NCBI GenBank assembly: GCA_025930755.1
Contig: JAICOJ010000019.1
Span: 1 to 45,260, forward strand
Length of the DNA stretch: 45,260 bases
From: Gemmatimonadaceae bacterium
GTDB taxonomy: Bacteria > Gemmatimonadota > Gemmatimonadetes > Gemmatimonadales > Gemmatimonadaceae
Direction of reading: 5' to 3'
In this document: piece by piece, positions 2,976-42,887 of the stretch
Layout: every line of letters begins with the position of its first letter
How positions within the stretch are numbered: position 1 is the stretch's first letter
Notes under the pieces: model-generated
Seen by the model: the letters and a program-made list of their open reading frames with translations, nothing else
What the model was told of the DNA's origin: nothing
Databases searched by the model: none
Program-made: the position numbers and the translations under genes

Positions 2976-3064
2976 CCCCCAGGCTGCTCCGCGCGCTAAC
3001 ACATCTGTCACAACTGTCGCACCGAACGGCCAACCTCTCGAAGACGCGCGGAGGTAGACTCGCC

Positions 3065-3162
3065 GTACGCAGTTCGCAATTCGCAGTTCGCAGTTCGCAT
3101 TACGCAGTTCGCAGTTCGCAGTCCGCAGTCCGCAGTCCGCAGTTCGCCGTTCGCCGCTCGCC
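3065..3162. repeat. Direct heptamer array, GTTCGCA type, 14 units
   Basis: Fourteen consecutive 7-base units fill 98 bases exactly. Most read GTTCGCA, with variants GTACGCA, ATTCGCA, TTACGCA, GTCCGCA (three in a row), GTTCGCC and GCTCGCC. Unlike most other arrays in the window it has no inverted partner. It lies between the response regulator and the rhodanese start and reads without stops on both strands. Confidence 0.9.
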
Positions 3163-18483: not shown

Positions 18484-18564
18484 GTAACCCCTTGGTGCGG
18501 TAGTTCGTCGAAGATATAGCAAAATGCGACGGTCCGGGCACCTCGGCAGCGTCGCGAAACGCAA

Positions 18565-18653
18565 GGAACGAGGAACGAGGAACCAGGGAGCGGCCTTCGA
18601 ATCCCGGCGCGCCAGCCCTCCATTCCACTTCCTCGTTCCTCGTTCCTCGTTCC
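18565..18653. repeat. Heptamer inverted repeat, GAACGAG type
   Basis: GGAACGAGGAACGAGGAA (18565-18582) is mirrored by TTCCTCGTTCCTCGTTCC and one further unit (18629-18653), around a 46-base spacer. It lies between two diverging genes and ends only seven bases before the PilS-like start codon at 18661, so it covers the whole region where that gene's promoter and ribosome site should be. Confidence 0.88.
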
Positions 18654-18660
18654 GTCCCCC

Positions 18661-20301
18661 ATGCTAGACTCCCGCCGAATTGTTCGCTGGGCCTACATCG
18701 GCCGGCTGTCGCTGTCCGCCGCGATCTTCTCCGCGGCGCTGTTCGCGTGGGAAATCGCCAACCCGACGAACACCCGCCTCGCCGCGCTCATGCTCGTCGG
18801 GGCCATGATCTTCACGGTCGGCTCCGCATGGTTCGAGATGACACGCCCGGAGCGGACCGGGCGCGCCTTCTTCTATCTGCAAACTCTGTTCGACCTGATC
18901 CTCGTTACCGCCACGGTGCACATCACGGGGGGGGCGAGCTCGCCGTTTGCGGCCCTCTACATCCTCGTTATTGCCTACGCGTCCCTGGTGCTGCCCATCG
19001 GCAGTGGGCTCCTCGTGGCCGCATTCGGCAATGTGCTGTACATCGGCGACGTGGTCTGGAGCCATGGGCACGACATCGGAGCAAGCGTCTGGCTCCAGCT
19101 GGCGATCTTCGCCCTCGCCGCGCTCGGTACTGGTGTTCTGGCCGCTCGCATGCGCGAGGCAGGTGCCGGGCATGCATTGCAACTCGAGGCCCAGCTGGAG
19201 CGGGTCCGCCTGCAGGCGGATGACGTGCTGCGCACGATTCGCAGCGGGATTCTTACCGTCGAGCACAACGGTGCTCTCGCGTTCGCCAACCCGGCAGCGG
19301 GCCGGATGCTGGGCTTCGAGCCGGTGCAGGCGATCGGAACCCCGATCCGCGAGCTGTTCGGCGACAAGGCTCCCGTGCTCGTCCAGGCGCTCGAGCGCAC
19401 GATTCGCGATCGCATCCGCATCTCGCGCTGGGAAGCGACCATTGCGGGCGAGGGCGGCCCGTTTCCCATCGGCCTGAACACGACCACCATCGACGCCGAC
19501 GGCACCCCCGAGGGGATCTCGGCGACCGCGATCTTCCAGGACATCACCGACTCCAAGCGTCTCGAGGAGCTGCGCCTGCGGGCCGAACGTCTCGAGGGCG
19601 TGGCGGAGCTCAGCGCGTCGCTCGCGCACGAGATCAAGAACCCGCTGGCCTCGATTCGAAGCGCGGTCGAGCAGCTGTCGCGCGTCCCCCAGACGACCGA
19701 GGATGCGCGAACGCTGGCCGCGCTGATCATTCGCGAATCGGACCGACTGTCCCGGCTGCTGTCGGAGTTCCTCGACTTTGCGCGCACTCGCGTCACCCGC
19801 ATCGCGGAAGTGGATCTGGGCGACCTGGTGAAGGGTGCGGTGAAGCTGGCCGCAACGCACCCCGATGGCCACAAGCGCGTTCGCGTCTCGTGCGCGACCC
19901 CCACGCACGGCATTCCCGTCGAAGGCGATGAGGACCTGCTCCACCGCGCGGTCTTCAACATCGCGCTCAATGCCGTGCAGGCGGCGCGCGACGACGGCCA
20001 CGTCTGGGTGGAAGTGGCGTCCGTGCCGCCCGAGCAGCTCCCGGTCGGCGTGTCGTTCGAGCGTGGCGCCGCCTCCGTGCGCATCACCGATGACGGTCCC
20101 GGCATTCCCGCCGCGGTCCGCGCCAAGATGTTCGACCCGTTCGTGACGACGAAGCCCGGCGGTACCGGCCTGGGCTTGCCGATCGTGCACCGTGCGATCG
20201 AGGCCCACCGTGGTCTCGTCTTCGTCGACAGCGGCAGCTCAGGAACGCGCTTCACCGTGCTCCTGCCGCGCCGCCAGCCCAAACCCGAGGAGTCCCCGTG
20301 A
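18661..20301 (+). CDS. PilS-like sensor histidine kinase (NtrB type)
   Basis: 546 residues. The first 165 hold about six membrane helices, as in PilS. A PAS domain (about 185-300) contains GILTVEHNGALAFANPAAGRMLG. The kinase core has the H-box SLAHEIKNPLASI with His323, an N-box NIALNAVQAA, DDGPGIP and GTGLGLPIVHRAI; HEIKNP is the NtrB-class form. Its stop overlaps the start of the sigma-54 activator (GTGA). PilS senses pilin in the membrane and phosphorylates PilR, and the nearby prepilin genes support that assignment. No clear ribosome site precedes the ATG. Confidence 0.88.
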   Translation: MLDSRRIVRWAYIGRLSLSAAIFSAALFAWEIANPTNTRLAALMLVGAMIFTVGSAWFEMTRPERTGRAFFYLQTLFDLILVTATVHITGGASSPFAALYILVIAYASLVLPIGSGLLVAAFGNVLYIGDVVWSHGHDIGASVWLQLAIFALAALGTGVLAARMREAGAGHALQLEAQLERVRLQADDVLRTIRSGILTVEHNGALAFANPAAGRMLGFEPVQAIGTPIRELFGDKAPVLVQALERTIRDRIRISRWEATIAGEGGPFPIGLNTTTIDADGTPEGISATAIFQDITDSKRLEELRLRAERLEGVAELSASLAHEIKNPLASIRSAVEQLSRVPQTTEDARTLAALIIRESDRLSRLLSEFLDFARTRVTRIAEVDLGDLVKGAVKLAATHPDGHKRVRVSCATPTHGIPVEGDEDLLHRAVFNIALNAVQAARDDGHVWVEVASVPPEQLPVGVSFERGAASVRITDDGPGIPAAVRAKMFDPFVTTKPGGTGLGLPIVHRAIEAHRGLVFVDSGSSGTRFTVLLPRRQPKPEESP

Positions 20302-21680
20302 TTGCCCCCGCCTCCGATCCACGCCCGAGTGTGCTGATCGTGGATGACGAATCCGCGATCCTCGACACGCTGCGGATTCTGCTGAAGAACGAAGGCTTCG
20401 AGACGCACGTCGCGCTCGGCGGCAAGCAGGGCATCGAGCGCCTTCAGGACGTGAAGCCCGACATCGTCATCACCGACGTGCGGATGCCCAACGTCGGCGG
20501 CCTCGAGGTCCTGAGCGCGGCGCGGCAGCGCGATCCGGATCTCCCGGTGATTCTCATGACCGCGCAAGCCGATCTCCGGTCGGCGATTCAGGCGGTGAAC
20601 GCGGGCGCGTACTACTACGTGCAGAAGCCGTTCGCCAACGACGACATCGTGGCGATCCTGCGCCGTGCCGCCGAGCATCGGCAGTTGCGCGTCGAGAACA
20701 AGTCGCTCAAGCAGGAGATCAAGCGCCGCGGGTTCGACACGTCCTCGCGCCCGATTGGACGGAGCAAGGCGTGGCTCGACGTGCTGCGGCTCGCCGAGAC
20801 GGTCGCCCCCTCCGAGTCGACGGTGCTGATTCAGGGCGAGTCGGGCACCGGTAAGGAAGTGGTCGCGCGCTACATCCACGAGCTGTCGGGACGGGCGGAC
20901 GCGCCGTTCCTCTCGATCAACTGCGGTGCGCTCCCCGAGTCCCTGCTCGAGAGCGAGCTGTTCGGTCACGTGAAGGGCTCGTTCACCGGCGCCGTGAAGG
21001 ACAAGGCCGGTCTCTTCACCGCCGCCGCCGGCGGCACGTTCTTCCTCGACGAAATCGGCGAGACGACGCCGTCGACCCAGGTGAAGCTGCTTCGCGCGCT
21101 GCAGGAGCGCGAGATCATCCCGGTCGGCGCGACGGAAGCCATTCCGACGGATGCGCGGGTGCTCGCCGCGACGAACCGGGAGCTGGAAGAGGAAATGAAG
21201 CGGGGAGGATTCCGCAGCGATCTCTTCTATCGCTTGAACGTGTTCGCGCTGCACCTTCCGCCGCTGCGCCACCGCAAGGAGGACATTCCGCTCCTCGCCA
21301 CGTCCTTCCTCGAGCGCACGGCGAAAGCGCGCGGCGAGCCGCTCAAGCGGCTCAGCGAAGAGGCGCTCGAGATCATGCGGGAGTACGCGTGGCCCGGCAA
21401 CGTCCGTGAGCTCGAGAACTCGCTCGAGCGCGCCGCGATTCTGACGAACGGCGAGGTGATCGATCCCTCGGCGCTTCCGGAGCGCATCACCGAGCGCCGG
21501 TCCGAGCCGCTCGTCAGCGAGCGCGGCCCGACGAATCCGACGCTCGACGTCATTGAGCGTGCCTACATCCTGTGGGTGCTCGACAGCGAAGGGGGCAACA
21601 AGAGCCGGGCGGCCGAGGTGTTAGGCATCGATCCCTCCACGCTCTACCGCAAGCTCTCGCGGTTCGGCGTCGAAGCCTGA
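20298..21680 (+). CDS. PilR-like sigma-54-dependent response regulator
   Basis: 460 residues. Receiver domain (about 10-125) with Asp60 in IVITDVRMP. AAA+ domain (about 145-380) with Walker A GESGTGKE at 180-187, the sigma-54-contact loop as GSFTGA at 227-232 (Ser in place of the usual Ala), and GGTFFLDEIGE. A Fis-type helix-turn-helix closes the protein (NKSRAAEVLGIDPSTLYRKL). It should activate sigma-54 promoters from enhancers when phosphorylated by the upstream kinase. The only strong sigma-54 site found is before the prepilin genes (24507). Confidence 0.9.
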   Translation: MIAPASDPRPSVLIVDDESAILDTLRILLKNEGFETHVALGGKQGIERLQDVKPDIVITDVRMPNVGGLEVLSAARQRDPDLPVILMTAQADLRSAIQAVNAGAYYYVQKPFANDDIVAILRRAAEHRQLRVENKSLKQEIKRRGFDTSSRPIGRSKAWLDVLRLAETVAPSESTVLIQGESGTGKEVVARYIHELSGRADAPFLSINCGALPESLLESELFGHVKGSFTGAVKDKAGLFTAAAGGTFFLDEIGETTPSTQVKLLRALQEREIIPVGATEAIPTDARVLAATNRELEEEMKRGGFRSDLFYRLNVFALHLPPLRHRKEDIPLLATSFLERTAKARGEPLKRLSEEALEIMREYAWPGNVRELENSLERAAILTNGEVIDPSALPERITERRSEPLVSERGPTNPTLDVIERAYILWVLDSEGGNKSRAAEVLGIDPSTLYRKLSRFGVEA

Positions 21681-21682
21681 CC

Positions 21683-22897
21683 ATGACGGCGCGGCCGCTT
21701 CCGTCGCTCCGCTGGGAGCTGCTCGGGAACCTCGCGGTTCTCGCGACCGCCGCGCTCATGCTCGCTGTCGCGAGCCTGCTCGTGTTCACCGGGATCGCCG
21801 AAAGCCGGAATGCGGCGCTGTGGCTGACGATGCTGATCATCGCCGACGTGATGATCTTCGTCGTGTTCGGCGGCTACCTGGTACGACGACTCGTCATCCG
21901 GCCGGTCGACGAGATCGTCGCCGCCGCCGAGGCGATCGCGGAAGGCGACCTCGCCCGACGCGCTCCGGAGATGAACTCGGTGGAGCTCGCGCGGCTGGCG
22001 ACGAGCCTCAACCGCATGACGACGCGCCTGCTCGAGGAGCAGACGCTGGTCGTGCGCGCGGAGAAGATGGCGAGCGTCGGCCGGTTAGCCGCGGGTATCG
22101 CGCACGAGATCGGCAATCCCCTTGGCGCGATCAATGGCTACACCCACCTGGCTCGGCGACGGCTCCGCGACAGAGGACTCGAGGATGAGCTCGATGCCAT
22201 CGAACGGGAGACGACCCGCATCGACCGGATCGTGCGTGGCTTGCTGGACTATGCGCGGCCGCGTCGCGCGACGCCCGAGTCGATCGGCATCGAGGAGTGC
22301 GTCGAGCGCGTCGTGACGATGCTCCGTGATCAGGGCGCCCTCAGGGAGGTCGAGGTCCGTACGGAGATTCCGTCGGGCGTTCCCGCGCTCTCGGGAGATC
22401 GCCACGAGCTCGAGCAGGCACTCGTCAATCTCCTGCTCAACGCCATCGACGCCATGGATGGACGCGGCGCGGTGACGATTGCCGCGCGCGCGGACTCACT
22501 GGCGTCGCTTCGCGATGATGCTGCCGTGCGGAAGGGGGATTCGCCCAGCGTGATGGCCGAGCGCGAGCGGAATCCGCGCGTGCGGGCGTGGCTGCACCGG
22601 GTCGGGGAGCCCTCGCGCATTCTTACCGTGACGGTCGCGGATTCCGGTCCAGGCGTCGACCCCGATGACATGGAGCGCATCTTCGATCCGTTCTTCACCA
22701 CCAAGCCTCCGGGGAAAGGCACCGGCCTCGGCCTCGCCATCGTCGCGCGCATCGTCGACAACCTCGGCGGCGTCGTGTGGGTGCGTCCGGCGCGGGAAGG
22801 AGGGGCCGCATTCGTCATGATGTTCCCGCTCGGCGTCGCGGTGTCGGCGCCGGTGAGTCTCATGCCGCGCGTTCGTGAGGGAGCGCTCGTCCGATGA
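21683..22897 (+). CDS. HAMP-containing NtrB-type sensor histidine kinase
   Basis: 404 residues from the ATG three bases after the PilR-like stop. Two membrane helices (about 12-35 and 45-70) with almost no periplasmic loop are followed by HAMP (70-125), H-box GIAHEIGNPLGAI with His141, N-box LVNLLLNAIDAM, DSGPGVDPDD and GTGLGLAIVARI. An insertion of about 50 residues, rich in charged residues, sits between the N and G1 boxes. With so small an external loop it probably senses a membrane or cytoplasmic signal. It is translationally coupled (ATGA) to its own sigma-54 regulator. Confidence 0.88.
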   Translation: MTARPLPSLRWELLGNLAVLATAALMLAVASLLVFTGIAESRNAALWLTMLIIADVMIFVVFGGYLVRRLVIRPVDEIVAAAEAIAEGDLARRAPEMNSVELARLATSLNRMTTRLLEEQTLVVRAEKMASVGRLAAGIAHEIGNPLGAINGYTHLARRRLRDRGLEDELDAIERETTRIDRIVRGLLDYARPRRATPESIGIEECVERVVTMLRDQGALREVEVRTEIPSGVPALSGDRHELEQALVNLLLNAIDAMDGRGAVTIAARADSLASLRDDAAVRKGDSPSVMAERERNPRVRAWLHRVGEPSRILTVTVADSGPGVDPDDMERIFDPFFTTKPPGKGTGLGLAIVARIVDNLGGVVWVRPAREGGAAFVMMFPLGVAVSAPVSLMPRVREGALVR

Positions 22898-24255
22898 CCG
22901 GCATGCGCATCCTCATCATCGATGACGAGCCCGCACTGCGGCACACCATCTCGGCGATCCTGCACGACGAGGGACACGAGGTGACGACCGCCACCGACGG
23001 GGAGGATGCGCTCGCCAGGCTCGCCGTCGCTCCCGCGGATCTCATTCTCTGCGACGTACGCATGCCGACCATGGATGGGATGACCTTTCTCGAGCGCCAC
23101 GTCGGTCATGGCGGGTCGGGCCTGGTCGTCATGATGAGCGCGTACGGAGATTCGGAGACCGCCATCGCCGCCATGCAGCGCGGCGCGTACGACTGGATCC
23201 AGAAGCCGTTCCGCGCCGAGGAGATCGTGCTGGTGGTGCGGAAGGCGGTCGAGCGGGAGCGACTGCGCGCCGAGGTGAAACGGCTCGAGGGTGAGCTGTC
23301 GACGCTGCGCCAGTCGAGCGACGCGATCATCGGGCGCAGCGAGGTCATGCGCACGGCGCTCGACGTCGCGCGCAAAGTCGCCCGACATCCGGCGACGGTG
23401 CTGCTCACCGGGGAGAGCGGAACGGGGAAGGAGATCGTCGCGCGTCTCATTCATCGCGAGAGCCCGCGAGCGAGCGCACCCTTCGTCGCCGTGAACTGCG
23501 GCGCGATCCCCGAGGCTCTGCTCGAAAGCGAGCTGTTCGGGCACGAGAAGGGTGCGTTCACCGGGGCGACGCGGGACAAGGCCGGCCTCTTCGAGGACGC
23601 GCACGAGGGCACGCTCTTTCTCGACGAGATCGGTGAGCTGCCGGCGGCGTTACAGGTGAAGCTGCTGCGCGCGCTCCAGGAAGGGGAAGTCCGGCGCGTC
23701 GGTGCGAACGTGTCGAAGGCCGTCGATGTGAGAGTCATTGCCGCGACGAACCGCGATCTGCACGCGGATGTCGCGAGCGGCCGTTTCCGCGCCGACCTCT
23801 TTTATCGCATCAACGTCGTGGCGATCGCGCTGCCGCCGCTGCGCGATCGGCCGGACGACGTCCCGGAGCTGGCGCTCTTCTTTCTCGAGCGACATGCCGC
23901 GCGCATGGGTCTCGAGGCCCACGGCATTTCGCCGAGCGCGATGCGGATTCTCGCCGAGCATTCGTGGCCGGGCAATGTGCGCGAGCTGGAGCACGCGATC
24001 GAGCGCGCGCTGGTCATGACGGGCGGGAAGACGATCGAGGCAGCGGATCTCCCATCGCCCGTGCGCTCGAGCGGGCGCCACGCGGCCGTCACGGACGGAA
24101 CGCTCTCGGTGAAGCAGCAGACGACCGAGCTCGAGAAGGCGTTGATCCGTCGCGCGCTGGAGCACACGCGGGGCAATCGAACGCGTGCGGCGCGGTTGCT
24201 GGAGCTCTCGCACCGCGCATTGCTCTACAAGATTCGAGAGTATGGGCTGGAGTGA
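22894..24255 (+). CDS. NtrC-family sigma-54-dependent response regulator
   Basis: 453 residues. Receiver with Asp54 in [16 protein letters not shown]+ domain with Walker A GESGTGKE at 173-180, canonical GAFTGA at 220-225, [10 protein letters not shown] and the arginine-rich sensor region; C-terminal Fis-type helix-turn-helix ([21 protein letters not shown]). It is a paralogue of the PilR-like protein. Its stop codon is overlapped by the following heptamer array, so the protein end borders repeat DNA. Targets are unknown; either this regulator or the PilR-like one could use the sigma-54 promoter 250 bases downstream. Confidence 0.9.
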
Positions 24256-24412
24256 ACGACTGCGAACTGCGAACTGCGAACTGCGAGCTGCGAACTGCGA
24301 GCTGCGAAGCTGTGGCACCTCACCCACCCTGCCGTCTTCGCAGTTCGCAGTTCGCAGCTCGCAGTACGCAGTACGCAGTACGCAGTACGCAGTACGCAGT
24401 TCGCAGTCGTTC
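24254..24412. repeat. Long heptamer inverted repeat, TTCGCAG type, unequal arms
   Basis: The left arm 24254-24309 (56 bases) carries CTGCGAA/CTGCGAG units. The right arm 24336-24412 (77 bases) carries TTCGCAG, CTCGCAG and five TACGCAG units. The outer 18 bases pair perfectly, and the arms differ by exactly 21 bases, three units, consistent with unit gain in one arm. It starts on the stop codon of the NtrC-like gene. Confidence 0.92.
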
Positions 24413-24415
24413 CAC

Positions 24416-24453
24416 CTATGCAAACAGTTGCGAAGCTGAACTTCTTTGCATAG
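24416..24453. promoter_or_regulatory. Perfect inverted repeat, candidate enhancer for the prepilin operon
   Basis: CTATGCAAA (24416-24424) and TTTGCATAG (24445-24453) are exact reverse complements with a 20-base centre that itself contains AGTT and AACT. Its midpoint lies about 98 bases before the start point predicted from the sigma-54 promoter. That spacing is typical for NtrC-family enhancers. Binding by the PilR-like or NtrC-like protein is inference. Confidence 0.55.
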
Positions 24454-24506
24454 CGAGCAGGGCACCCGAACAAAGACAACACTTTATCCAATAACGAGTT
24501 AGCGCA

Positions 24507-24522
24507 TGGCACGGGCCGCGCC
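24507..24522 (+). promoter_or_regulatory. Sigma-54 promoter candidate for the minor prepilin operon
   Basis: TGGCACGGGCCGCGCC matches the -24 box TGGCACG fully and keeps the invariant GG-N10-GC spacing (GG at 24508-24509, GC at 24520-24521); the -12 TT is missing. Transcription would start near 24533, leaving a 19-base leader that holds AGGAG before the ATG at 24552. Confidence 0.6.
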
Positions 24523-24551
24523 TATGTGGTGGGCGCCACCCAGGAGCCTTC

Positions 24552-25001
24552 ATGCGCACTACACGCTTCGCGTTCACGGTCCTCGAGCTCATCACGGTGA
24601 TGAGCATCATCGGCATCCTCACCGTGATCGCCCTCCCCAAGTTCACCGAGACCGTTCGCAACTCGAAGGTGCGGTCGGCTCGCGATGAAGTCGTGTCGTA
24701 CTTCATGCGCGCGCATGCCGTCGCCATTCAACGCGGACAGCGCACGCACGTGCGCGTCGCCGGCGACCGCATGTCCGTCGTCACCGAGAACAACGGCGTC
24801 GAGCAGACCGTGCTGCAGAGCGACCTCTACTCCGGCCACGGCGTCTCGCTCTACGCATCGCAGAATGAATTCACGTACGACCCGCGCGGCTTCGCCCAGA
24901 ACATTCCGGGCATGGGCCGCCTCATGGTCACGCGTGACAGCAAATCGATGCCGGTGTGCGTGACCGGCCTCGGCAAAGCCTACCTCAACGGGTGCAACTG
25001 A
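24552..25001 (+). CDS. GspH/FimU-type minor prepilin
   Basis: 149 residues. The class III signal reads RFA before FTVLELITVMSIIGIL, so cleavage would be between Ala and Phe rather than the usual Gly-Phe, with Glu at mature position 5. One hydrophobic helix is followed by a beta-rich domain of about 115 residues. It ends with two cysteines (VCVTGLGKAYLNGC) that could form the disulfide loop. FimU/GspH proteins sit at the pilus tip complex. AGGAG precedes the ATG. It is the first gene after the sigma-54 promoter and is followed after one base by the PilV-like gene. Confidence 0.85.
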   Translation: MRTTRFAFTVLELITVMSIIGILTVIALPKFTETVRNSKVRSARDEVVSYFMRAHAVAIQRGQRTHVRVAGDRMSVVTENNGVEQTVLQSDLYSGHGVSLYASQNEFTYDPRGFAQNIPGMGRLMVTRDSKSMPVCVTGLGKAYLNGCN

Positions 25002-25002
25002 C

Positions 25003-25413
25003 ATGCTGACCCGACTCTTTCGCACTCGCCGGGCGCGCCGCGCGCGCCGCGCCGGGTTCACCGTCATGGAGCTCATCGTCGCGATCGTGATCCTCTCGAT
25101 CGGACTGCTGGGTCTGGCGGCGACCTCCGGCATCGTCATGCGCCTCATCGGCGGCGGTACGCATCAGACCGTGGCCGCGAACGTCGCGCTCGCGCGCTTC
25201 GAGCACCTTCGCTCGCTGAGCTGCGGACGCATGACCGGTGGGGCGGCGAACAATCGCAATGTCCAGGAAGCGTGGTCTGTGACGCCGATCGGCCCCGTCG
25301 CCACGCCACGGGCGATGGACGTCCGCCTCACGATCACCTACCAAACCTCGATGCGACGCGGCGGCTCGTCCTCGCGCACGCAATCGTACCGGAGTCAGAT
25401 CGCATGCATCTGA
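25003..25413 (+). CDS. PilV-like minor prepilin, copy 1
   Basis: 136 residues. A very basic leader (RTRRARRARRAG) precedes the cleavage site G-FTVMELIVAIVILSIGLL with Glu5. The globular part is short (about 90 residues) and holds the pair SCGRM and IACI, a likely disulfide. Position between the FimU-like and PilW-like genes and resemblance to copy 2 (27728) support a PilV role. It overlaps the next gene by 10 bases. Confidence 0.85.
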   Translation: MLTRLFRTRRARRARRAGFTVMELIVAIVILSIGLLGLAATSGIVMRLIGGGTHQTVAANVALARFEHLRSLSCGRMTGGAANNRNVQEAWSVTPIGPVATPRAMDVRLTITYQTSMRRGGSSSRTQSYRSQIACI

Positions 25414-26369
25414 TCACACCGAACGCCCAGACCCAGTGCGCCCAGCCCGGGCGCCGAGGGATCACGCTCCCTGAAATGATGGTGGTGCTGGTGTTGTTGG
25501 GGCTCGTCGTCGGCGGCCTGATGACGGTCCTGGTGCGCCAGCAGCGCTTCTACACCGGCACCAGCGAGATCATCCAGACGAAAGGGAGCGCGCGGCAGGC
25601 GATCGATATCCTGTCGAGCGAGCTGCGCGGCATTTCCACGGGTACGCGGAACGGCGCTCCGAATAATGTCGACATCTACGCGATGAGTGATTCGTCGCTG
25701 ACCTTTCGCTCGCAGTTCGGCGGGTCGGTGGTGTGCACGATCGATCCCTCGCGCACGGTCATCACCCTCCCGCCGCGGCTGATGGCGGCCCAGAACGGAC
25801 TGACCTCCTTCCTCTCGGATGCGCGAACCGGCGACTCGGTCTTCGTCTTCGATCAGGGCGCGCAACCGGGCACGAACGATGATCGCTGGCAGCGCGTGGC
25901 GCTCGCACGCGATCCGGGCGTTGGCGTGTGCCCGGTGGCGCCGGTCGGCTTCACCGCCACCGCCGTCGAAGAGGCAGCCAGCATCCAGATCGTCCTCACC
26001 GATCCGCTCGCGGGCAGCGTCATGCTCGGCGCGCCCATCCGGTTCTTCCGTCCGGCGTCGTACAGCCTGTATCAGGGCGCCGGCGGCGATTGGTGGCTCG
26101 GCTATTTCTCGTGCCCCGGCAACGCGTGTACGCCGCGTGAGGCGGTCAGCGGCCCGTACCAGCCGTACGCGGGCGCCGGCGGTCCAAGCGGTCTCGCGTT
26201 CGCCTACTTCGACTCCACCGGCGCGGTCACGGCCGACCCTCGTCTCGTCGCACGTATTGACGTGGTCGCTCGCTCGCAGAGCCAGTTCGATCTCGACGTC
26301 GCGAACGTTCGCCGTCGGAAGTATCAGGATTCGCTCGGGGTTTCCATCGCCGTGCGAAACCGGATCTGA
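25404..26369 (+). CDS. PilW-like minor prepilin, copy 1
   Basis: 321 residues from the ATG at 25404, inside the end of the PilV-like gene. The prepilin site is RRG-ITLPEMMVVLVLLGLVV with Glu5. The large mainly beta C-terminal part contains VDIYAMSDSSLTFRSQ, IRFFRPASYSLYQG and cysteine pairs (VCTID; FSCPGNAC). The same landmarks occur in copy 2 at 28124, so the two are clear paralogues. PilW-type subunits join the tip complex that primes pilus assembly. Confidence 0.85.
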   Translation: MHLITPNAQTQCAQPGRRGITLPEMMVVLVLLGLVVGGLMTVLVRQQRFYTGTSEIIQTKGSARQAIDILSSELRGISTGTRNGAPNNVDIYAMSDSSLTFRSQFGGSVVCTIDPSRTVITLPPRLMAAQNGLTSFLSDARTGDSVFVFDQGAQPGTNDDRWQRVALARDPGVGVCPVAPVGFTATAVEEAASIQIVLTDPLAGSVMLGAPIRFFRPASYSLYQGAGGDWWLGYFSCPGNACTPREAVSGPYQPYAGAGGPSGLAFAYFDSTGAVTADPRLVARIDVVARSQSQFDLDVANVRRRKYQDSLGVSIAVRNRI

Positions 26370-26393
26370 CGTATGCCTCCAGGAGAACCTCTC

Positions 26394-27506
26394 ATGTCAC
26401 GCATGCCCTCGCGACGTCGCGGCTTCGCCCTCCCGGTGGCGGTGTTCGCCATCGTGATCATCGGCGCGCTCGTCGGCGGTGCTTTCTTCGCCTCGACGCA
26501 GGAGTTTCGGATCGGCACCAACACGCTTCAGCAGACGCGTGCGCTTGGCGCAGCAGAATTCGGGCTGAACCAGACGCAGGCAAACTGGAACGGCAGGTGG
26601 AACACGTCGATGCAGCGCGGCCAAATCCAGACGCTGACGCCGGCCACGTCCGACGGCTCCGTCGCGACGGTGCGCGTGACCCGGTTGAACGACCAGGCCT
26701 TCCTCGTCGCCGCCGAGGGACGGTCCGGTCAGGCGCGGCGCCGTACGGCGAAGCTGCTCGTGTTGAATTTGCCACAGATCAATTTTCTCGCGGCGCTCAC
26801 TGCCCGTGGCGCTACGCGGATCGGCGGGAGCTCGCAGATTGACGGGAACGATCACAACTATCCCGGGTGGGACTGTCCGGCCCTCGGCCCGGCCAAGCCC
26901 GGAATCGCGGCGTCCGATACATCACAGATCACGACCTCGGGCTGCTCGAACTACAGCTGCATCGCAGGTAGTCCCAAAGTCGTCGAGGATCCTGCCGCCG
27001 CCGATACGAATACGTACTTCACGTTCGGGTCAATCGGCTGGGCCGAGCTGCGCTCCATGGCGAGCAAGATCGTGAGTGGCAACATCCAGGGCATCGGCCC
27101 GACCGTCATCAGCGGTCAATGCAACGAAGCCGACTTCAAGAACTTCGGTGAGCCGTGGAAGGGGACGGGCGCTCCATGCACCAACTACTATCCGATCATC
27201 TACTCGGCAGGCGACCTCATCCTGAACACCGGGCGAGGGCAGGGAATCCTCCTGGTCGAGGGCAACCTCGAAGTACAAGGCGGCTTCGAGTTCTACGGAC
27301 CCGTCATCGTGCGCGGAACGCTTCGAACGGCTGGCGGCGGGGGCCACTTCAACGGCGGCGTGCTCGCGGCCAACGTCGAGCTCGACCAGAACGTCGTGAT
27401 CGGTAATGCCGTCATCTCCTACTCGCGGTGCGCCATCCTGAAGGCGCTGAACGGCAGCGCGACGCCGACCACCGCGGTCGAGCGGGCGTGGTACGAGGTG
27501 TATTAG
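26394..27506 (+). CDS. PilX/GspK-like minor prepilin, copy 1
   Basis: 370 residues from the ATG at 26394, chosen for AGGAG (26381-26385); an in-frame ATG at 26373 would add seven. The N-terminus RRRG-FALPVAVFAIVIIGAL is prepilin-like but lacks Glu5, as in GspK-type tip subunits. The C-terminal third (GDLILNTGRGQGILLVEGNL, then VQGGFEFYGPVIVRG) looks like a short beta-helix. Cysteines occur in pairs. It closes the first prepilin block and has a paralogue at 29023. Confidence 0.83.
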   Translation: MSRMPSRRRGFALPVAVFAIVIIGALVGGAFFASTQEFRIGTNTLQQTRALGAAEFGLNQTQANWNGRWNTSMQRGQIQTLTPATSDGSVATVRVTRLNDQAFLVAAEGRSGQARRRTAKLLVLNLPQINFLAALTARGATRIGGSSQIDGNDHNYPGWDCPALGPAKPGIAASDTSQITTSGCSNYSCIAGSPKVVEDPAAADTNTYFTFGSIGWAELRSMASKIVSGNIQGIGPTVISGQCNEADFKNFGEPWKGTGAPCTNYYPIIYSAGDLILNTGRGQGILLVEGNLEVQGGFEFYGPVIVRGTLRTAGGGGHFNGGVLAANVELDQNVVIGNAVISYSRCAILKALNGSATPTTAVERAWYEVY

Positions 27507-38011: not shown

Positions 38012-38066
38012 CGAACGAGGAACGAGGAACGAGGAAGCGACTTCCTTGTTCCTCGTTCCTCGTTCG
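38012..38066. repeat. Near-perfect 26-bp heptamer hairpin, GAACGAG type
   Basis: The left arm 38012-38037 and right arm 38041-38066 are 26 bases each with a 3-base loop (CGA); 25 of 26 positions pair and the last would be a G-U pair in RNA. It lies 24 bases after the lipoprotein stop and 13 bases before the aroC start. Confidence 0.93.
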
Positions 38067-40200: not shown

Positions 40201-42789
40201 ATGGCCGAGAAGAAGACAAAGGCGCCCAAGGCAGCGAAGGGGTCCAAGGGATCGAAGGTCGCGAGGACGGCGCGGAAGGGCACCAAAGCGATCGTCCCCG
40301 CGCCGGCGAAGATCGTGTCCCGGCGCTCCACCCGAAAAACCGCCGTCGGCAAGGCACCCCCAGTCGACGACACGCCGTCGGTGATGGGCTCCGGTGCGTC
40401 GCTCGTCATCGTCGAGTCGCCCGCCAAGGCCAAGACCATCGGCAAATACCTCGGCCGCGCCTATCGAGTGAAGGCGACGGTCGGGCACGTGCGCGACCTC
40501 CCGCAGAAGAAGCTGGGCATCGACATCGCGTCCGGCTTCGTCCCGGAGTACGTCACGATCGCGGGCAAGGAGAAGACGCTCGCCGATCTCAAGACCGCCG
40601 CGAAGGATGCCCGCGAGATCTTCCTGGCGACCGACCCCGACCGCGAAGGAGAGGCGATCGCGTGGCACGTCGCCGATCAGATCCGCCGTCGTGGCGGCGC
40701 GCCGATTCGCCGGGTGCTCTTCCACGAGATCACGAAAGACGCGGTGCAGACCGCGATCGACAACGCTGGCGTGATCGACGAGAAGAAAGTCGAGGCGCAG
40801 CAGGCGCGACGAGTGCTCGACCGCCTCGTGGGCTACAAGGCCTCGCCCCTGCTGTGGAAGACGGTGAAAACCGGCCTGTCGGCGGGCCGCGTGCAGACGG
40901 TCGCGCTCCGGCTCATCGTCGAGCGCGAGCGCGAGATCCGCGCGTTCACGGCCGTCGAATACTGGAGCATCGAGGCCCAGCTCGAGAAGGAGGGCCAGCA
41001 GTTCACCGCGCGGCTCCACCACATCGATGGCAAGAAGCCGGAGATCCCCAACGAGCAGACGGCGAAGGGAATCGTCGACGCCGTGACCGCGATCGCGAAG
41101 CGCGAGATGGGCAAGCTCGGAGCTGGCAGTTCGGAGCTCGCAGTTCGCAGTTCGCAGCTCGCAGCTCGCAGTTCGCAGTTCGCAGTTGGTGTCTTCCCGG
41201 TCTCCGACGTCAAGCGCCGCGAGCGGCGGAAGAACCCCGCCGCGCCGTTCACGACGAGCACGCTCCAGCAGGAAGCGGCCAAGAAGCTGGGCTTCGGCTC
41301 CAAGCGCACCATGCGCGTCGCGCAGGACCTCTACGAGGGCATCGAGCTGGGTGACGAGACCGTTGGTCTCATTACGTACATGCGCACCGACTCCACGCGC
41401 GTGTCGCCGACGGCTGCCGGTCAGGCGCGTGATCACCTGCGCGTGTTATTCGGAAAGGAGTTCCTCGCCGACTCGCCGCGCCTGTACGGCAACGCGAAGC
41501 AGGCAAACACGCAGGACGCGCACGAGGCGGTCCGCCCAACCGATCCGACGCGTCACCCCGAGCACATCCGCCGCTACCTCGACGCCGATCAGTTCAAGCT
41601 CTACCAGCTGATCTGGCAACGCTTCATGGCGTCGCAGATGGCGCCGGCGGTCTTCGATACGACGACGGTGGAGTATCATCTGGAGTCCGACGGCTCGCAG
41701 GGTACAGCACGCAGTACGCAGCACGCAGCACGCAGCTTTCACTTCAGATCGACCGGTTCCGTCATCAAGTTCCAGGGCTACCTCGCCCTCTACCGCGAAG
41801 CGCACGAGGAAGGGGAGGGTCGCGCGCTCGAGGACGAGCAGCCGCTGCCGGTCCTCGAGACGGGCGAGCGCATTCCGGTGCGCGAGATCGTACCGAACCA
41901 GCATTTCACCGAGCCGCCCCCTCGCTTCAGCGAGGCGAGCCTGGTGAAGGAGCTCGAGCGCCTCGGGATCGGGCGCCCGTCGACGTACGCATCGATCATT
42001 TCGACGCTCACCGAGAAGCAGTACGCGCGCCTCGAGCAGCGTCGCTTCTTCCCGAGTGACCTGGGCGAGAAGGTCGAGCGAGTGATGGTCAAGCAGTTCC
42101 CCGACATCTTCAACGTGAAGTTCACGTCGGAGATGGAAGAGGAGCTCGACAAGGTGGAGGACGGCAGCCTCGGCTGGCAGCGCGTGCTCGAGGAGTTCTG
42201 GAAGCCGTTCGAGTCCGCGCTCAAGACCGCCGATCCGCAGAAGATGATCGCCGATGCGCACGACCTGGGCGATCTCGTCAACGAGCGCTGTCCGGAGGAC
42301 GGCGGCCGCCTCATTGCGCGCAGCGGCCGCTTCGGGCCGTTCATCGCTTGCGAGAACTACCCGGCGTGCAAGCACACGCGTCGTCTCGCCGGCGACAAGA
42401 AGCCTGACGAGCCGACGAACGAGGTGTGTCGTGAGTGCGGCGCGCCGATGCTCATCAAGCATGGCCGGTACGGGCGCTTCATGGCCTGCAGCCGCTATCC
42501 CGAGTGCAAGCACACGCGTCCGATCCCCCTCGGCGTCAAATGTCCGAAGGATGGCGGCGATCTCACCGAGCGCCGCTCACGCCGCGGCAAGATCTTCTTC
42601 GGATGCGCGAACTACCCGAACTGCGACTTCGTCTCCTGGAATCGCCCGGTCGCCGAGCGATGCCCCGACTGCGGCTTCGAGGGTGCGGAAGCGAAGAGCA
42701 CGAAGGCCCGCGGCGAATTCCGCAAATGTCTCAAGTGCGGCAACGAGTGGGACGTGGTCGCGCGCGAGGAGGAAGCGGTGGCGGTCTAG
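40201..42789 (+). CDS. topA: DNA topoisomerase I TopA with two repeat-derived insertions
   Basis: 862 residues from the ATG at 40201. A lysine-rich N-terminal extension (about 1-65) precedes the Toprim domain (LVIVESPAKAKTIGKYLG; acidic ATDPDREGEAIAWH). The active-site tyrosine is Tyr393 in GLITYMRTDSTR. Four zinc-ribbon modules close the protein (CPEDGG, CRECG, CPKDGG, CPDCG). The enzyme relaxes negative supercoils by single-strand passage. Two stretches, about 309-330 and 499-512, are encoded by heptamer arrays (SELAVRSSQLAARSSQFAV; ARSTQHAARS) and lie where other TopA proteins have short loops, just before the KNPAAPFTTSTLQQ segment and before GSVIKFQGYLALY. The frame stays open across both, so the gene appears functional. 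Confidence 0.93.
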   Translation: MAEKKTKAPKAAKGSKGSKVARTARKGTKAIVPAPAKIVSRRSTRKTAVGKAPPVDDTPSVMGSGASLVIVESPAKAKTIGKYLGRAYRVKATVGHVRDLPQKKLGIDIASGFVPEYVTIAGKEKTLADLKTAAKDAREIFLATDPDREGEAIAWHVADQIRRRGGAPIRRVLFHEITKDAVQTAIDNAGVIDEKKVEAQQARRVLDRLVGYKASPLLWKTVKTGLSAGRVQTVALRLIVEREREIRAFTAVEYWSIEAQLEKEGQQFTARLHHIDGKKPEIPNEQTAKGIVDAVTAIAKREMGKLGAGSSELAVRSSQLAARSSQFAVGVFPVSDVKRRERRKNPAAPFTTSTLQQEAAKKLGFGSKRTMRVAQDLYEGIELGDETVGLITYMRTDSTRVSPTAAGQARDHLRVLFGKEFLADSPRLYGNAKQANTQDAHEAVRPTDPTRHPEHIRRYLDADQFKLYQLIWQRFMASQMAPAVFDTTTVEYHLESDGSQGTARSTQHAARSFHFRSTGSVIKFQGYLALYREAHEEGEGRALEDEQPLPVLETGERIPVREIVPNQHFTEPPPRFSEASLVKELERLGIGRPSTYASIISTLTEKQYARLEQRRFFPSDLGEKVERVMVKQFPDIFNVKFTSEMEEELDKVEDGSLGWQRVLEEFWKPFESALKTADPQKMIADAHDLGDLVNERCPEDGGRLIARSGRFGPFIACENYPACKHTRRLAGDKKPDEPTNEVCRECGAPMLIKHGRYGRFMACSRYPECKHTRPIPLGVKCPKDGGDLTERRSRRGKIFFGCANYPNCDFVSWNRPVAERCPDCGFEGAEAKSTKARGEFRKCLKCGNEWDVVAREEEAVAV
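41126..41188 (+). repeat. In-frame heptamer array in topA, GCAGTTC type
   Basis: Nine units in a row (GCAGTTC, GGAGCTC, GCAGTTC twice, GCAGCTC twice, GCAGTTC twice, GCAGTTG), 63 bases or 21 codons. Two more degenerate units may lie just upstream (41112-41125). Same family as the arrays at 3065 and 24254. Confidence 0.93.
41695..41736 (+). repeat. Second in-frame heptamer array in topA
   Basis: Six units (TCGCAGG, GTACAGC, ACGCAGT, then ACGCAGC three times), 42 bases or 14 codons. The boundaries are fuzzy, but the unit total keeps the reading frame. Confidence 0.85.
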
Positions 42790-42791
42790 TC

Positions 42792-42887
42792 CGAACGAGG
42801 AACGAGGCACGAGGAAGTGGGTGGCGAGTCTCTCTCTCGCCACCCATTTTGTTTGAATGGTGCTTCCTCGTTCCTCGCTCCTCGTTC
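42792..42887. repeat. Heptamer inverted repeat spanning the topA-trmFO gap, GAACGAG type
   Basis: The left arm 42792-42817 starts two bases after the topA stop. The right arm 42863-42887 lies inside the trmFO reading frame. The arms pair with two mismatches. A separate 10-bp hairpin sits between them. Confidence 0.9.
42819..42853 (+). terminator. Intrinsic terminator after topA
   Basis: GGGTGGCGAG (42819-42828) and CTCGCCACCC (42836-42845) pair perfectly around TCTCTCT and are followed by ATTTTGTTT, the only hairpin in the window with a T-rich tail. It would end or attenuate transcription between topA and trmFO, nested inside the heptamer arms. Confidence 0.7.

Follow-up and report, generated by a model that had tools for sequence, protein, structure and literature searches.

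The question raised by this locus is which regulator activates the minor pilin genes in a type IV pilus cluster with two sigma-54 activators of its own, and through which DNA elements. The window, by which the whole analysed stretch of 45,260 nucleotides is meant, carries pilS, pilR, an ntrB/ntrC-like pair, fimT and pilV/W/X-like genes, followed by pilM, pilN and pilQ (Table 1). Named relatives place the source in the phylum Gemmatimonadota, order Gemmatimonadales and family Gemmatimonadaceae, and the gene order fimT-pilV-pilW-pilX-pilMNOPQ is kept in other families. The true start of the ntrB-like gene probably lies inside its open reading frame. In the first-pass annotation, a sigma-54 promoter, a matched enhancer-like palindrome and two sigma-54 activator genes upstream were proposed to form a control circuit for the minor prepilin operon. 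Both activators are borne out by Pfam, each having receiver, sigma-54 AAA+ and HTH_8 domains, and sigma-54 control is supported by phylogenetic footprinting and by rpoN, which was found in the genome (4.27 Mb). Of the two activators, PilR is an unlikely binder of the palindrome, given its recognition helix and the pilA box.

Table 1. Features of the window that bear on control of the minor pilin operon (positions in the window).
Feature	Position	Strand	Basis
pilS: PilS-like sensor kinase	18661..20301	+	6TM_PilS, PAS, HisKA
pilR: PilR-like sigma-54 activator, probably for pilA, not the fimT promoter	20298..21680	+	Pfam; HTH differs; different pilA box
ntrB-like sensor kinase (HAMP/HisKA/HATPase), proposed partner of the ntrC-like activator	21572..22897	+	Pfam; gene pair syntenic
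ntrC-like (NtrC/AtoC-like) sigma-54 activator (receiver, AAA+, Fis-type HTH), proposed enhancer binder	22894..24255	+	Pfam, NCBIfam
Inverted heptamer array (long hairpin), activator gene to enhancer	24254..24412	.	TRF; fold z -12.7
AtoC-type 40-bp predicted enhancer, two inverted 20-bp halves	24415..24454	+	Identity to E. coli atoDAEB AtoC site
Dyad 1, TGCAA-ACAG-TTGCG	24419..24432	+	Conserved in 32 genomes
Dyad 2, TGAAC-TTCT-TTGCA, 18 bp from dyad 1	24437..24450	+	Conserved in 32 genomes
Middle symmetric element TAA-N4-TTG-N5-CAA-N4-TTA, probable IHF-type bend site	24477..24501	+	Held-out scoring; shared with pilA
Sigma-54 -24/-12 promoter TGGCACGGGCCGCGCC, 45 bp before fimT	24507..24522	+	GG-N10-GC; fixed distance to enhancer
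fimT/GspH-type minor prepilin, first gene of the operon	24552..25001	+	PF12019; conserved order
pilV-like, pilW-like and pilX-like minor prepilin genes	25003..27506	+	N_methyl / PilV matches; synteny

The favoured reading, to which a probability of about 85% is given, is that the minor pilin operon is turned on by a sigma-54 circuit of the AtoC type, with DNA bending by a homodimeric IHF-like protein and with PilR assigned to pilA. It draws throughout on sequence evidence: the sites themselves, the constant distances between them in the order, their occurrence next to the activator gene and the AtoC-like helix-turn-helix (HTH) of its product. Briefly, a signal would activate the ntrB-like kinase, which would phosphorylate the ntrC-like activator; this protein would then bind the tandem pair of dyads that closely follows its gene, within the predicted enhancer. 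A homodimeric IHF-like protein would bend the DNA at the middle element, so that the activator AAA+ domain could open the sigma-54 holoenzyme at the -24/-12 promoter, and transcription would begin near 24533 and run into fimT-pilV-pilW-pilX.

With regard to the promoter, the claimed GG-N10-GC spacing is confirmed for TGGCACG-N6-GC, beginning at 24507. Its -24 half (TGGCACG) is canonical, whereas the -12 half is CGC-GCC and not TTGCW, a deviation from the TTGC of the general rule (TGGCAC..TTGC, with N10 between GG and GC). If the second G of GG is taken as -24, the transcription start of the operon would be 24533. The perfect inverted repeat claimed about 98 bases upstream of the predicted start was also recovered: its 9-bp arms CTATGCAAA/TTTGCATAG, at 24416-24424 and 24445-24453, are separated by 20 bp, and the midpoint lies ~98 bp before 24533. 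Taken singly, neither motif carries much weight, because TGGCACGN6GC occurs 46 times in the genome (versus 180 for the reversed control pattern) and perfect 9-bp inverted repeats with spacers of 3-40 bp are common in the window (62, versus 12-31 in mononucleotide shuffles). The palindrome is the only one of these 62 with A+T-rich arms and, with its spacer included, is unique in the genome. Such frequencies would favour the view that promoter call and palindrome are chance products of a G+C-rich genome, but this view is hardly credible, since both elements are conserved across the order at fixed spacing, as judged by shuffle controls and held-out scoring. It is this conservation that is decisive.

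Orthologs of the ntrC-like gene were collected from 151 genomes of the order, their scores grading from clear orthologs to PilR-like paralogs, and 42 loci were scored for dyads. Two tandem dyads of the form TGCAR-N4-YTGCR, with starts 17-19 bp apart, were detected between the ntrC-like gene and fimT in 32 of the 42 loci, including that of the window's genome. The dyad-pair score is 16-20 of 20 in these loci, versus a maximum of 15 among 840 shuffles. As the 32 loci were chosen by dyad score, their dyads are there partly by construction, whereas selection did not extend to distance, promoter or middle element; the genomes are related, so that the counts are not independent events. In 31 loci the -24 element starts 86-89 bp past the first dyad; in the remaining one the interval is 78 bp, about one helical turn less. 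In many genomes the first dyad starts right at the activator stop codon. In the sister species G001, the only genome of the same genus that was found, enhancer (ATGCAAAAAGTTGCGACGCTGAACCTGTTTGCATAG) and promoter (TGGCACGAGTCGCGCC) are retained while the DNA between them has drifted. The cross-family alignment also led to rejection of the 9-bp palindrome as a binding unit, as it reveals two separate tandem dyads, 18 bp apart in the window, of which the palindrome forms the outer arms, that is, half-sites. The enhancer-like element is backed by order-wide conservation, with its unit redefined.

Alignment of the 32 fimT promoters at -24 gives GG in all of them and A in 31. The -12 C, which is usually conserved in sigma-54 promoters, varies (C in 11, T in 12, A in 8), and C in place of T right before the -12 G occurs only in the window and in G001. 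The -12 element of these promoters is looser than the textbook rule. Many of the promoters of loci L097-L112 have TGT or TGA for TGC at -12, which is unusual for sigma-54; pilA promoters of the order keep TTGC there, unlike many fimT promoters.

Among the scored loci, pilV-first operons have neither the dyads nor the promoter, and in G022 and G128 the activator lies beside fimT with no clear dyads. No good sigma-54 site was found before the fimT operons that lie outside the pilus cluster (G021, G007, G011, G016 and G027). A close activator ortholog is absent from most Gemmatimonadaceae examined, which indicates that the circuit is dispensable there. In G167, G173 and G174 (L280, L279 and L282), which have no ntrC-like neighbour, the IHF-like dyad and the -24/-12 element are kept together with another shared upstream stretch, CGAWAGWTATGT, which is perhaps the box of another activator. 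When the set was extended through the pilM neighbourhood in named genomes, most loci had no fimT in the flank, and only L202, L266 and L270 added or repeated examples.

As for the protein that would bind the dyads, the enhancer of E. coli AtoC is known experimentally and is comprised of inverted 20-bp sites, GCTATGCAGAAATTTGCACA/TGCGCAATTTTCTGCATAGC, in a 40-bp palindrome (PMC3118216). At 24415-24454, the window has a pair of inverted 20-bp sites of this GCTATGCAGAAATTTGCACA type; 27 of 40 positions are identical to the E. coli enhancer (28 of 40 on the other strand), and the next best place in the window reaches 23. The E. coli enhancer starts 12 bp past the atoC stop codon, ahead of the target operon. 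The ntrC-like activator is 47% identical to E. coli AtoC, and its recognition helix is like that of AtoC (SRRALMYKLQEYG), while that of PilR (DPSTLYRKLSRFG) differs. Its best NCBIfam match is the AtoC equivalog (NF008469), at 508 bits; the cut-off of 714 is not reached, and the protein is accordingly termed AtoC-like and not AtoC. Its mode of action at the DNA is probably that of AtoC, although it falls outside the AtoC equivalog. The binder of the enhancer is likely to be this adjacent NtrC-family protein and not PilR. A genome scan with the enhancer pattern at up to 2 mismatches for further targets of the activator recovered the fimT site and otherwise only weaker matches, of which several look like repeats, and the reversed control pattern gave more hits in total. 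The complete pattern occurs nowhere else in the genome.

Between enhancer and promoter, 30 to 6 bp upstream of -24, the 32 aligned promoters share a symmetric element, TAA-N4-TT(G)-N5-(C)AA-N4-TTA, which in held-out scoring falls within 1 bp of one position in 31 of them. It recurs 16-19 bp ahead of -24 in 44 pilA promoters, a position roughly one helical turn more distal than at fimT; this set was defined by an element score of at least 3 within 14-20 bp, and scores there reach 23.6, versus a 99% shuffle limit of 10.5. HU/IHF proteins kink DNA at steps spaced 9 bp. In the middle element, TT and AA steps are 9 bp apart, and the IHF core CARNNNNTTR is conserved and mirrored, while the WAT part of WATCARNNNNTTR is not conserved. 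The genome holds one IHF/HU-family gene, with greater similarity to IHF than HU; binding of a symmetric site by a homodimer would be in keeping with this. Taken together, the element is quite probably an IHF-type bend site. It was first read as a PilR site, and the IHF reading came to be preferred for the core, the symmetry, the sharing between pilA and fimT at differing distances and the independence from the upstream box. If the element instead bound another specific regulator, PilR for example, fimT would have a two-input promoter. This is suggested by its being a true dyad, conserved nearly as well as the -24 element and common to pilA promoters; it is considered unlikely, although worth keeping in view, given the IHF core with its 9-bp steps, the position between enhancer and promoter, the constancy of the element where the upstream box is of another type (G003, G167, G173 and G174), and the separate GCA-N3-TGC box that pilA has farther upstream.

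PilR itself, in place of the NtrC-like protein, might drive fimT through the palindrome. The pilR gene sits in the same cluster, and PilR activates pilin genes in other bacteria. In G003, moreover, where no activator gene lies beside fimT, the fimT promoter has one GCA-N3-TGC box. On the other hand, the PilR recognition helix is different, the N6 dyads accompany the ntrC-like gene and are missing from that same G003 promoter, which keeps the middle element and the -24/-12 element, and the pilA promoters of the order show another box: GCA-N3-TGC is present in 22 of 41 (0.9 expected), mainly near -109 and -88, while GCA-N6-TGC, the form found in fimT promoters, is present in 1 of 41. The fimT promoter thus lacks the upstream box common to pilA promoters of the order, by which a PilR target would be recognised, pilA promoters being the expected targets of PilR. 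Control of fimT by PilR is regarded as improbable. A search for the palindrome before pilA elsewhere in the genome had also been suggested; it gave no such site, the enhancer pattern being restricted in this genome to fimT.

The AtoC-like circuit is therefore retained for fimT, and PilR probably serves pilA through a box of equal half-sites at other spacing. The N3 box at pilA versus N6 at fimT indicates that the two activators likely discriminate by half-site spacing; both PilR and the ntrC-like protein may recognise one and the same half-site, at different spacings. In addition, activator inputs look as if they had been exchanged on a fixed core in a few cases (G003, G167, G173 and G174). 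A broader model, which we hold tentatively and at somewhat less than even odds, combines these points: paralogous activators would share the half-site GCA/TGC and have their targets separated only by spacing (N3 for PilR/pilA, N6 for the AtoC-like protein and minor pilins), one symmetric bend site would be served by a homodimeric IHF, and upstream boxes would be swapped while the core of bend site and promoter stays fixed across the order.

Several other features were observed. The pilA gene of the window's genome lies on a contig other than that of the pilus cluster (G000:C236:12789-13076, L168) and has its own -24/-12 element (CGGCACCCGCATTGCC) and IHF-like dyad. It is the one clear copy in this genome, versus about ten or more near-alike copies each, over many contigs, in G121 and G005 (e.g., L138 and L139). 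The heptamer hairpin between the activator gene and the enhancer was considered as a part of the switch and dropped, as it is missing or different in relatives: a different repeat hairpin occupies the equal place in the ntrC-fimT gap of G001, and none is present in other families. More arrays of 7-bp units occur in the window (3060-3154, 18564-18653, 38013-38065, 41114-41187 and 42793-42887), and in several cases two arrays face each other in inverted orientation and fold into very stable hairpins (z -7 to -12.7).

From DNA features of the locus that are conserved throughout an order whose members are mostly uncultured, it can be predicted which activator controls which pilus genes. The locus would also extend the recognition code of AtoC, known from Proteobacteria, to a distant phylum, and it makes a clean case in which the setting of binding specificity by half-site spacing can be tested. 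Minor pilins prime pilus assembly, and the arrangement suggests that they can be switched separately from the major pilin. In the literature searched, no work on pili regulation in Gemmatimonadota was found, nor the combination of a dedicated minor-pilin activator beside PilSR with a spacing difference.

The closest known counterpart is the E. coli AtoSC/atoDAEB system, which likewise pairs an activator of the NtrC family, closely alike in its recognition helix, with a 40-bp inverted enhancer (outer arms CTATGCA/TGCATAG) between the activator stop and the target operon. The target is different, minor pilins here and short-chain fatty acid catabolism in E. coli; the dyads are 18 bp apart here versus 19 in the E. 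coli enhancer, the kinase shows HAMP/HisKA/HATPase matches and no PAS match, unlike that of AtoSC, and the conserved IHF-like dyad is an addition relative to atoDAEB. Sigma-54 PilSR/pilA systems occur in Pseudomonas, Geobacter and others, and are resembled here in that pilS-pilR lies in the same cluster and sigma-54 promoters precede pilA in this order; however, the activator assigned to fimT is a second NtrC-type protein and not PilR. In commensal Neisseria, pilE is controlled by RpoN, IHF and the Nps/Npa pair (PMC6528607), and that system is similarly a sigma-54 pilus gene with an NtrC-type activator site upstream and IHF between activator and promoter. Only the major pilin is so controlled in Neisseria (PMC6528607), whereas here a dedicated activator is proposed for the operon of minor pilins, the box before pilA is a separate one with other spacing, and the IHF-type site shows dyad symmetry.
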